From an uncultured Bacteroides sp. (GTDB lineage: Bacteria; Bacteroidota; Bacteroidia; Bacteroidales; Bacteroidaceae): a DNA stretch of 64,000 bases. The notes beneath the pieces were generated by a model. It saw only the letters and a program-made list of their open reading frames with translations. It did no database searches and had not been told where the DNA came from. The first letter of the stretch is position 1. Each line of letters starts with the position of its first letter. The DNA lies in the NCBI GenBank assembly GCA_945965395.1, contig CAMFND010000018.1, forward strand, positions 1 through 64,000, in the 5' to 3' direction. The position numbers and the translations under genes are program-made. Below are positions 21,426 to 52,059 of this stretch, in pieces.

Positions 21426-21494
21426 TTGTAAAGAATTCCTGAGCTTTTTCATGAAATATCCGTCCGTTATTTCCCGAAAACAAAACCAGATTTA

Positions 21495-21582
21495 CCTCGA
21501 CACGTACGTGACGAGGTCATGACATGTACGTGCGGAGAGGTCGACACGTACGTGTCGAGGTCTTAACACGAACGTGTTGTGA
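21495..21582. repeat. Palindromic array C: four 22-bp units with core CACGTACGTG
   Basis: CCTCGACACGTACGTGACGAGG / TCATGACATGTACGTGCGGAGA / GGTCGACACGTACGTGTCGAGG / TCTTAACACGAACGTGTTGTGA. Cores start at 21501, 21523, 21545 and 21567. Confidence 0.9.
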
Positions 21583-21732
21583 AATCATCGTAAAGACATT
21601 TCCTGTACAACTTCTTTTGCATCGGACAATAATATAGAAAGCTCTATCCGAATAGAGCTTCAGATTTTTATATAGCTTTTCTGATGGAACTGACTGATAA
21701 AAAGGGAAAAGTATAAGAGCTTAAAAAAACAA

Positions 21733-21757: not shown

Positions 21758-21768
21758 AATAATCATCG

Positions 21769-22162
21769 TGGACCTGGAGGGAGTCGAACCCTCGTCCAAA
21801 CAAGGAAGCCATATGCTTTCTACATGCTTATCTCTGCCTTCGGTTTTCGTGCATAAGCAAGACCAGAGCCACCCACTTATACCTTAGTTCCTAAGATTTC
21901 ATTTCAGTCGCGGAACGAGACCAAAACTATTTCCGAATTTGCTGCACCGCTAAACCAAACGCTTCGGAACAAGAGCTTTTGAGCGATGTCTCGTTTCCAT
22001 CACTTTGACGGAAATAAAGCTAATCTACTGTACTTCGATTAAGCAGCGAGAGCATAGTTTTCGTTGCCAGATAATTGTTCAGTAACTGAGATTATAGTGC
22101 AAATCACTGACGCACTGCATGCTTACATACCACATCTCTCGCTGTCAAAACCAAACAAGCCC
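21769..22162 (-). ncRNA. ssrA: tmRNA, encoded tag GNENYALAA
   Basis: Minus strand 5' GGGCTTG pairs (with wobbles) with 3' CAGGTCC. T-arm GAGGGTTCGACTCCCTC. Tag reading frame GGCAACGAAAACTATGCTCTCGCTGCTTAA at 22068-22039. Confidence 0.93.
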
Positions 22163-36322: not shown

Positions 36323-37612
36323 TTATATAACCGGCGTAAACAAATGCGCAAACCATCCTACAAAACGACGCCATACACTCCGCTTCTTATATTCCTCACG
36401 GGTCATAATCGTACTATTGAGCTTGTCGTTTTGAAATACTTCTCCCAACTCGGCAGTAGTAGGCAAATCCAGAATAAATGCATTGATTTCATAATCATAA
36501 TGCAGACTACGGCTGTTCAAGTTCGTACTGCCTACCGTACAGAATCGCTCGTCCACCATCATGATTTTAGAATGATGAAAGCCTCCATTAAACACGTAGA
36601 TGTGTGCTCCCGCCTTACGCAGCTTATTGGCTATATAAAATCCGGCATCGGGAGTAAAAGAGATGTCCGACTTCCCCGGAATCATGATTTCCACCCGAAC
36701 TCCCCGTTCAGCCGCCCGTTTGATGGCATTTCTTACTTCACGGGTAGGAGTAAAATAAGGATTGATAATCTGCACCTTACGTTCTGCTGCATCCAATGCC
36801 GCAATATAAGCCTCACGCATGATTTCCGGACAAACTTTCGGAATACGCTGCACAATGGCAACCCTTCTTCCGGAACCCTCGCACAACGTATCGTGCATCA
36901 CTTGTCCTTCCTTCAAGTCCTCGTGCGTCTCCTTATTCCATACACCTAAAAAAGCTTTTTCCAGATACTGCACTGCCGGTCCTTCTATACGGATGTGCAT
37001 ATCACGCCAGGGACCGATTTTTGGAAGCCCGTTGATATAATAATCGGCAATATTCATACCTCCCGTATATCCCACCTTTCCGTCAATTACCACAATTTTC
37101 TGATGGTCACGACAAAATACATGATTGATATAAGGGAAACGAATGGGACTGAAACGGGCCATTTCCACTCCTCTTTCCGCCAGCATCTTCAGATGTTCCT
37201 TTCGCAAAGGACGACTGTTTGACAAATTTCCAAAGTCATCAAACAGGGCCTTGATTGTCACTCCTTCTTTGGCTTTCTCCGCCAACAAGGTAAACAATTC
37301 CTTGGCAATAGAATCACTGCGGAAATTAAAGTATTCCAGATGGATATAGTTTTCAGCCTTCTTTATATCCTCAAACAGATGTTCAAACTTGCTGCGACCG
37401 CTCTTCAACAAAGTCATACGATTACAAGCCGTAACAGGAATTTGTTTTTCTTTCAAAAAACGAGCAAACAAGGAATCAGCAGGCAGGTAAACATTGGCTG
37501 TGTCTGCTTCAACCTGACTAACAACCTCTTTCAAGCTTTGTCCTTTGGCCGAAATCACACTGCATATCATTATTACCCACCCAAACAGGTATAACTTTAC
37601 TTTCATCTTCAT
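36323..37612 (-). CDS. Cardiolipin synthase (phospholipase D family)
   Basis: Two HKD motifs: HQKIVVIDGKVGYTGGMNIAD and HSKIMMVDERFCTVGSTNLNSRSL. Confidence 0.92.
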   Translation of the reverse strand: MKMKVKLYLFGWVIMICSVISAKGQSLKEVVSQVEADTANVYLPADSLFARFLKEKQIPVTACNRMTLLKSGRSKFEHLFEDIKKAENYIHLEYFNFRSDSIAKELFTLLAEKAKEGVTIKALFDDFGNLSNSRPLRKEHLKMLAERGVEMARFSPIRFPYINHVFCRDHQKIVVIDGKVGYTGGMNIADYYINGLPKIGPWRDMHIRIEGPAVQYLEKAFLGVWNKETHEDLKEGQVMHDTLCEGSGRRVAIVQRIPKVCPEIMREAYIAALDAAERKVQIINPYFTPTREVRNAIKRAAERGVRVEIMIPGKSDISFTPDAGFYIANKLRKAGAHIYVFNGGFHHSKIMMVDERFCTVGSTNLNSRSLHYDYEINAFILDLPTTAELGEVFQNDKLNSTIMTREEYKKRSVWRRFVGWFAHLFTPVI

Positions 37613-37735
37613 AACGGTTATCGGGCAAAAATATGCAATATTTCAGAAAACACAATGACTTTCGAAAACAGAATTGAAAGAATGACCATCTATTCCATCA
37701 AATAACCTTATTGATAATCTATTTTCTACCTGCAA

Positions 37736-37829
37736 ATTCTCTGTTTCACAGTGCAGGATTTGTATCCCACACTGTGAAATACATATCCCACACTGTGGTT
37801 TTTGTATTTCATAGTGTGAAACAGAGAAT
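37736..37829. repeat. 94-bp palindromic array, copy B: four 21-bp units with 15-bp perfect terminal inverted repeats
   Basis: TTTCACAGTGCAGGATTTGTA / TCCCACACTGTGAAATACATA / TCCCACACTGTGGTTTTTGTA / TTTCATAGTGTGAAACAGAGA. About 12 mismatches to copy A by eye, no gaps, identical terminal repeats. Confidence 0.92.
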
Positions 37830-38053
37830 CCGTCTCGGAATTTAGAATTATGCATCAGGAGAAATACAAGAAAAACAAGGCATCAGAAGAAAAATAAAGC
37901 GATAAAATGTGAATTGAAAAAATGTAACCTACTCTTTGCAAAATTGGGATATGACATCTAAAAATAGTGAAATTTTTCCGTAATTGCCGAAAATCATCTT
38001 TTTTCATCCTATATTTACCAGTGTAAAGATTCGTTTTTCACTGATAACTTTCC

Positions 38054-38123: not shown

Positions 38124-39125
38124 ATGGAATTTGTAACAAACGAAAAACTTACCATTGTTGGTGCTGCCGGTATGATCGGTTCTAACATGGCTCAGACTGC
38201 TATCATGATGGGCTTAACTCCTAACATCTGCTTGTACGACCCGTACGCTCCAGGTTTGGAAGGTGTTGCTGAAGAATTGTTCCACTGCGGTTTCGAAGGT
38301 GTGAACATCACTTTCACTTCAGATATCAAAGAAGCGCTGACTGGTGCTAAATATATCGTAAACTCAGGTGGTGCTGCTCGTAAAGCTGGTATGACTCGTG
38401 AAGACCTGTTGAAAGGTAACGCAGCTATCGCAGAAGAATTCGGTAAGAACGTAAAACAGTACTGTCCGGATGTAAAACACATCGTAGTTATCTTCAACCC
38501 TGCTGACATCACAGGTTTGATCACATTGTTGTACTCTGGTTTGAAACCGGGTCAGGTAACTACTTTGGCTGCTCTTGACTCTACTCGTCTGCGTAGCGAA
38601 TTGGCTAAACACTTCGGTATCTCTATGGACGCTGTTGAAAACTGCCGTACTTACGGTGGTCACGGCGAACAGATGGCTGTATTTGCTTCTACTGCTAAAG
38701 TAAACGGTAAAGCTTTGACAGACATCATCGGTACTGATGCCTTGACAAAAGAACAGTGGGCTGAAATCCAGCAGAAAGTAACTAAGGGTGGTGCTAACAT
38801 CATCAACTTGCGTGGCCGTTCTTCATTCCAGAGCCCGTCATACGTTTCTATCGAAATGATTGGTGCTGCTATGGGCGGTAAAGCATTCCGCTGGCCGGCT
38901 GGTACTTACGTTTCTAACGAAAAGTACGACCACATCATGATGGCTTGGGAAACTTCTATCACAGCTGACGGTTGCCACTGCGCTGCGTTGAACGGTACTG
39001 CAGAAGAACAAGCTGCTTTGGATAAGAGCTACGAACACTTGTGCGCACTGCGTGACGAAGTAATCGCTATGGGCGTTCTTCCTCCAGTAGCTGAATGGAA
39101 CAAGCTGAACCCGAACATTAAATAA
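38124..39125 (+). CDS. mdh: Malate dehydrogenase
   Basis: Rossmann VGAAGMIGSNMA, FNPADITGLI, LDSTRLRSELA, YGGHGEQM active-site region. Confidence 0.85.
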   Translation: MEFVTNEKLTIVGAAGMIGSNMAQTAIMMGLTPNICLYDPYAPGLEGVAEELFHCGFEGVNITFTSDIKEALTGAKYIVNSGGAARKAGMTREDLLKGNAAIAEEFGKNVKQYCPDVKHIVVIFNPADITGLITLLYSGLKPGQVTTLAALDSTRLRSELAKHFGISMDAVENCRTYGGHGEQMAVFASTAKVNGKALTDIIGTDALTKEQWAEIQQKVTKGGANIINLRGRSSFQSPSYVSIEMIGAAMGGKAFRWPAGTYVSNEKYDHIMMAWETSITADGCHCAALNGTAEEQAALDKSYEHLCALRDEVIAMGVLPPVAEWNKLNPNIK

Positions 39126-51823: not shown

Positions 51824-51911
51824 TGAAAATCGCAGCGATTTATACATCCTGACAGATACAAAAATCACGAAACCGACCCACAATTTTTCGTTCAACGGCT
51901 CTACTCTTTTT

Positions 51912-51999
51912 ATGTCTCCCGAAGCGGAACCATACGTTTTCCATGTGAGAACCCTACGTTTTCGCTTCGGGAAACGTATGGTTTTCACGCGGAAAACAT
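51912..51999. repeat. Palindromic array D: about 22-bp phased units with nested inverted repeats
   Basis: GAACCATACGTTTTCCATGTGA (51927), GAACCCTACGTTTTCGCTTCGG (51949), GAAACGTATGGTTTTCACGCGG (51971). Inverted pairs: CCCGAAGCG/CGCTTCGGG and AACCATACGTTT/AAACGTATGGTT. Confidence 0.8.
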
Positions 52000-52059
52000 A
52001 AAACAGACAAAGCCGAAGCGTCATTATCTTCAGCAGGCTTTCCAATCTTATCAGACAAA

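Follow-up and report, generated by a model that had tools for sequence, protein, structure and literature searches.

The 94-bp array at positions 37736-37829 of the window (the whole stretch of 64,000 nucleotides that was analysed) is no two-copy curiosity: it is one of about 20 copies that lie between unrelated genes in a Phocaeicola/Bacteroides gut bacterium. Its family, here called A, is a member of a set of look-alike palindrome arrays that swap at the same spots among related species. The explanation we put first, with confidence that stays short of even, is that the array is a binding platform for a putative chromosome-organising protein. The array, its surroundings, and the second copy in the window are laid out as follows.

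37736-37829, no strand: 94-bp core of the A-family array, with 15-bp terminal inverted repeats enclosing four palindromic units at 21-bp pitch
37736-37750, plus strand: left terminal inverted repeat, ATTCTCTGTTTCACA
37815-37829, minus strand: right terminal inverted repeat
37744-37758, no strand: unit 1, centre 37751 = G, imperfect right arm
37765-37779, no strand: unit 2, TCCCACACTGTGAAA, centre 37772 = C
37786-37800, no strand: unit 3, TCCCACACTGTGGTT, centre 37793 = C
37807-37821, no strand: unit 4, TTTCATAGTGTGAAA, centre 37814 = G
37690-37735, no strand: left outer part, made up of two degenerate 22-bp units that belong to the extended array, recognised by information content and nearly gap-free among orthologues
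37830-37875, no strand: right outer part, likewise two degenerate 22-bp units, in inverted orientation to those of the left outer part
25-118, no strand: copy A, same family
36323-37612, minus strand: flanking gene, PLD-domain, cardiolipin-synthase-like (Pfam PF13091, PF00614)
38124-39125, plus strand: flanking gene, malate dehydrogenase, mdh (Pfam PF00056, PF02866)

The four units share the palindrome CACASTGTG, and the terminal inverted repeats are 100% complementary over their 15 bp. The length, the exact 21-bp phase, and the terminal repeats are as the original prediction gave them, in sequence and in coordinates; so is the comparison with copy A (about 12 mismatches and no gaps, i.e., 82 of 94 positions match), and gene coordinates and Pfam domains agree with the position it assigned between the cardiolipin-synthase-like gene and mdh. 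Both window copies were recovered by a scan for four phased palindromes, which returned 0 matches in 400 kb of Markov-randomised sequence, and the window contains 10 TTTCACASTGTGAAA-like sites, compared with 2.9 expected. Among 46 copies, information content exceeds background as far as about 46 bp on either side of the core, in mirror symmetry and with two degenerate 22-bp units per side, which brings the full element to about 186 bp. The 94 bp are the conserved core of this symmetric array. No terminator and no sigma-70-type promoter was found in the gap between the two genes, and an Rfam scan of the window returned only tmRNA and tRNA, leaving the array without a match. There is a resemblance to the parS half-site, TGTTTCAC, but the halves lie 3 bp wider apart here.

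The genome from which the window comes (G000; 3.72 Mb in 161 contigs) holds at least 8 complete A copies and about 13 that are truncated at contig ends; because the partial copies terminate where contigs end, the repeat evidently breaks the assembly. The contigs ending inside A arrays are C59, C80, C133, C113, C74, C25, C27, C36, C43, C147, C55, C19, C23, and C121. The family is present in 5 of the 61 genomes of the genus, this one included. Two are strains of B. mediterraneensis, Marseille-P2644T (G007) and An793 (G023), with about 20 copies each, many at orthologous sites; two others carry one or two copies, the genome with two being probably a Candidatus Phocaeicola faecipullorum MAG. The array was absent from 72,556 plasmid and 50,697 phage records (BLAST) and from the 2.9 million viral contigs of IMG/VR (pattern scan). 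We rejected an origin by way of plasmids, phages, or other viruses, given the lack of matches in these three collections at the sensitivity used.

The A arrays are inherited in place. At least 15 sites are orthologous by flanking sequence between the two B. mediterraneensis strains, several of them also in the window's genome, and every one of the 15 orthologous pairs from these strains keeps the orientation of the array. Conservation is higher in the core than in its flanks: identity between orthologues is 0.92 in the core, 0.80 in the adjacent 60 bp (almost gap-free, in an average that leaves out the windows under 65% identity, three pairs), and 0.85, with many gaps, in the DNA 60-160 bp from the core. 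As the adjacent 60 bp are almost gap-free despite being less identical, spacing appears to be constrained even where sequence varies, and within the core none of the 141 inter-unit spacings of 47 aligned copies has an indel. Paralogous copies differ at a median of 11-15 of the 94 positions, and no near-identical copies were found within one genome. The lack of near-identical paralogues and the inheritance in place indicate that the A arrays are old residents and not the product of a recent burst. The adjoining genes are functionally unrelated in the annotated sample, which includes PLD, mdh, M13 and M23 peptidases, GDSL lipase, MATE, TonB-dependent receptor, and GH88. Most arrays are found 120-300 bp ahead of a start codon; divergent gaps hold many of them, and some are placed between convergent genes.

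We mapped the family by searching the complete 4.03-Mb scaffold of B. mediterraneensis (G007) with a profile, so that the map describes one scaffolded genome. It carries 20 full-length A copies plus a half copy, and none of the 20 falls between 1.039 and 2.729 Mb (p = 7e-4 against uniform placement). The terminus lies within this A-free arc of 1.69 Mb, and all 20 copies fall in the ~58% of the chromosome on the origin side; the sign changes of GC skew put the origin at ~3.78 Mb and the terminus at ~2.22 Mb, the skew being slightly anomalous at 0-0.1 Mb. Family B, described below, lies opposite, with a mean position of 1.92 Mb versus 3.93 Mb for A: 38 of 59 B arrays, a lower bound from 150 scored candidates, are within the A-free arc versus 0 of 20 A arrays (Fisher 1e-7). 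In B. mediterraneensis, family A is origin-side and terminus-depleted, and family B is terminus-biased. Of the A arrays without an orthologue, five map onto this scaffold at 0.65, 0.71, 2.79, 3.37, and 3.99 Mb, the one at 3.37 Mb coinciding with the half copy. A sixth, from the window's genome, falls at 1.48 Mb, inside the A-free arc.

The avoidance of the terminus suggests a docking site for a putative protein. The array would be a cis-acting chromosomal element of four palindromic sites (six to eight if the degenerate outer units are counted), placed exactly two helical turns apart, a spacing that would line up several copies of a putative symmetric (homodimeric) DNA-binding protein along one helix face. 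The role would probably be chromosome-scale (nucleoid organisation, segregation, or division control, like Noc/NBS or SlmA/SBS) rather than local gene control. We infer the binding of a protein, its cooperativity, and the chromosome-scale role from the two-turn phasing, the symmetric sites, the constraint in place, the unrelated neighbours, and the chromosome-scale distribution, which taken together make a multi-dimer platform the best explanation. The patchy occurrence of the family across the genus (5 of 61 genomes) weighs against it, as do the restriction of the origin-side bias to one scaffolded genome with its skew anomaly and the A array of the window's genome that maps inside the empty arc. 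To our knowledge, no sequence-specific chromosome-organising sites of this sort are known for Bacteroides and its relatives, which are among the commonest gut bacteria, and nothing matching was found in the literature on Bacteroides palindromic or interspersed repeats or chromosome-organising sites. Some 20 fixed arrays that avoid the terminus arc, together with an oppositely biased family B, offer a DNA handle for finding chromosome-organising proteins.

Several known systems share part of this design. Phased 21-22-bp repeats on one helix face are found in iteron arrays and plasmid partition (centromere) sites, which, unlike A with its ~20 loci per chromosome, occupy one locus per replicon. 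The sites of Noc (NBS) and SlmA (SBS) number about 24-70 palindromes per chromosome and are concentrated towards the origin, with few at the terminus (PMC4726725, PMC4117426). A resembles them in the number of sites per chromosome and in its distribution, the origin enrichment and terminus depletion of a nucleoid-occlusion-type system having been found for A in one species only. Noc and SlmA sites are, however, single palindromes with a cognate protein, whereas A forms four-unit arrays and its protein is putative.

The same phased-palindrome scan found further families, B, C, D, and E, of the same design but with other palindromes. Family B is AAACGYAnnTRCGTTT (22 bp, 4-7 units), family C has units STAYGTTTCYNNNNYGGRAAMC (22 bp), family D is AAGTACTNNAGTACTT, and family E, within the window, is ACACGTACGTGT. 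Their arrays include the following.

Window 21493-21587: E array ACACGTACGTGT, four units at 22-bp pitch, just past the 3' end of the tmRNA gene, which occupies 21768-22162 on the minus strand
Window ~51910-52005: C-family array with TATGTTTCC-like ends and 22-bp pitch
Contig C1 of G007, 2606859 and 3889870: D-family arrays (AGTACTNNAGTACT, 22 bp)

At the B loci of the two B. mediterraneensis strains (L220-L299 of G007 and G023), orthologues gain and lose units. Across the bacterial family, four genera (G047, G092, G141, and G212; L158-L169) have arrays of the same design with the palindrome ATCTYCAGSCTGAAGAT or relatives of it; ATCTYCAGSCTGAAGAT itself occurs in G047, and the arrays of G047 and G092 share ACAGAGA-like ends with family A. 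A complete genome of the genus (G046) has a lone array at ~287521 of its contig (L201), with 23-bp perfect terminal inverted repeats (TCATCACTAAAGTGAAAC).

Two of these families stand in for A at the same gaps in relatives. We identified 15 gaps that are orthologous to A-bearing ones but lack A, 10 in a close relative of the window's genome (G056) and 5 in G007; 13 carry a C array and 2 have no array. Of 100 background gaps, 7 scored as high for C (p = 9e-14 versus 13 of 15), this background being gaps of at least 150 bp from B. mediterraneensis G007, while 10 of the 15 test gaps are from another species. The A-lacking gaps of G007 by themselves give 5 of 5 with a C array (p = 8e-6). The gap between the cardiolipin-synthase-like gene and mdh in G056, which is outside the set of 15, holds a B array. 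Hence, A is replaced by family C, and once by B, at the same gaps in relatives. The substitution of C for A could reflect repeats competing for the same tolerant gaps. A swap of array family at the same gaps, if true, would be an uncommon instance of a position that is conserved while its sequence is exchanged. An extension of the platform explanation, which we think doubtful, is that interchangeable phased palindrome arrays would form a coordinate system of Bacteroidaceae chromosomes, with origin- and terminus-side domains, a putative protein for each family, and the function of a site kept while its sequence family swaps.

The main rival to the platform, and a strong one, is that the arrays are non-autonomous repeats of the REP/BIME or MITE kind, selfish or domesticated, that spread in tolerant intergenic niches, the bias of the map then reflecting the survival of insertions; we consider this a real possibility and give it second place. 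Moderate copy number, terminal inverted repeats (15 bp and perfect in the 37736-37829 copy, as in MITEs), intergenic location, a patchy species range, and several families per genome all speak for it. The A arrays are extragenic clusters of palindromic units and, like the REP/BIME of Enterobacteria and Pseudomonas, lie in intergenic clusters of short palindromic units irrespective of the function of the neighbours. They differ from REP/BIME in their strict two-turn spacing (21/22 bp) and fixed unit number, in being much rarer, and in the replacement of one family by another with a different palindrome at orthologous sites. A REP unit is defined as a GTAG- or CGTC-tagged palindromic unit of 20-40 bp (PMC3733652), and neither tag is visible in the consensus of 47 A copies. 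A comparable Bacteroidales element is the BrickBuilt MITE of P. gingivalis, with 19 copies of 23-nt repeats that are always intergenic (PMC4596501). The likeness to A extends to order, copy number (~19), tandem units, exclusively intergenic location, and stable positions, but BrickBuilt has a long leader and tail with terminal inverted repeats and a variable number of units, in contrast to the fixed 94-bp core of A, and the paper does not call its units palindromic.

Other observations sit badly with such repeats. Recent near-identical copies at non-orthologous sites were not found (the closest A paralogues differ at 4-5 of 94 positions), which argues against recent spread. Most of the 15 A-lacking gaps are filled by C instead of being clean empty sites, and none has a recognisable target-site duplication. 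Purifying constraint and fixed spacing in place, the absence of A from plasmid, phage, and viral collections, and the 1.69-Mb empty arc, unexpected under random insertion, also count against them. Recombination between two A copies, which favours the repeat explanation, is visible at one locus of G056 (L300), where the left flank of one A array is joined to the flank of another with an 11-bp remnant (compared with L002 and L040), so that A arrays act as rearrangement points. Even if they are repeats of the REP/BIME kind, the arrays explain many assembly breaks in the group and are a natural data set on the micro-inversion of palindromes.

The remaining alternatives are weak. An RNA-level element, in which the transcribed array would fold as a long hairpin and act as terminator, attenuator, or mRNA stabiliser, is improbable. 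The predicted fold is stable (-43.2 kcal/mol, z = -7.9), as expected of any inverted array, and the B arrays lie near stop codons, are over-represented in convergent gaps, and have terminator-like A- and T-runs at their ends. Yet neither an Rfam match nor covarying pairs were found for the A array, within units or across it, beyond what shuffles give, and pairing falls slightly short of theirs; the array at 37736-37829 has no terminator-like site, and the usual place of A arrays is upstream of starts. Operators of an ordinary transcription factor would account for palindromic sites upstream of genes and for the several arrays in divergent promoter gaps; a regulon is nevertheless very improbable, since the sampled neighbours have no common function, some arrays lie between convergent genes, and the distribution follows the chromosome map.

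The original prediction had explained the differences between the two window copies by inversion or recombination between units. All four centre bases do differ between the copies (C, G, G, C in copy A; G, C, C, G in the 37736-37829 copy), and the TTT and TCC prefixes of units 2 and 4 are indeed exchanged. Flips of the centres are in excess: across the 15 pairs of orthologous arrays from the two B. mediterraneensis strains, 58 centres carry G or C in both genomes, and 14 of these (24%) differ by G<->C, compared with 30 of 873 (~3.5%) comparable G/C sites in neighbouring intergenic DNA (p = 1e-7), a rate ~7 times that of neutral sites. G<->C accounts for 14 of 16 centre changes versus 2 of 101 changes elsewhere in these pairs, both in the core, and half of the flips (7 of 14) are the sole change within their 15-bp unit. 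Of 188 unit centres, 186 are G or C, and the base at a centre does not depend on the arms around it (TCCC-C-GAAA and TCCC-G-GAAA each occur 11 times in unit 2). The prefixes vary in an ordinary way, through stepwise intermediates (TTC, TCT).

The part of the prediction that concerned inversion of the centres is thus supported. The parts concerning whole-unit inversion, shuffling, and compensatory change are not, because in the multi-copy alignment the arms do not accompany the flips and substitutions at complementary positions do not covary above shuffles. The prediction had named an alignment with neither compensatory nor inversion pattern as its refutation; the compensatory half is absent and the inversion of the centre is present. 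The flips are most simply read as micro-inversions of the palindrome centre, for which template switching is one possible mechanism; assembly chimerism of draft genomes is a possible source of some. Spacers of inverted repeats invert by template switching between perfect arms (PMC8604942), and such inversion would yield G/C flips at the centres; the published cases involve yeast genes with arms longer than 9 bp, whereas the perfect arms of A are often just 4-7 bp. Under the platform explanation, the flips would be tolerated since a symmetric protein would read both strands alike.

A locally shuffling or invertible element of the phase-variation kind, as first proposed, would produce the excess of flips, but it is hardly credible given that the flips leave the arms behind, that none of 60 family B units with conserved spacers is flipped, and that no recombinase is linked to the arrays. 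One array of the window's genome (L005) fits its orthologues (L077, L097) better when reversed relative to its flanks, as such an element would predict, with 16 differences versus 24 as it stands, which points to a possible inversion of the whole array.
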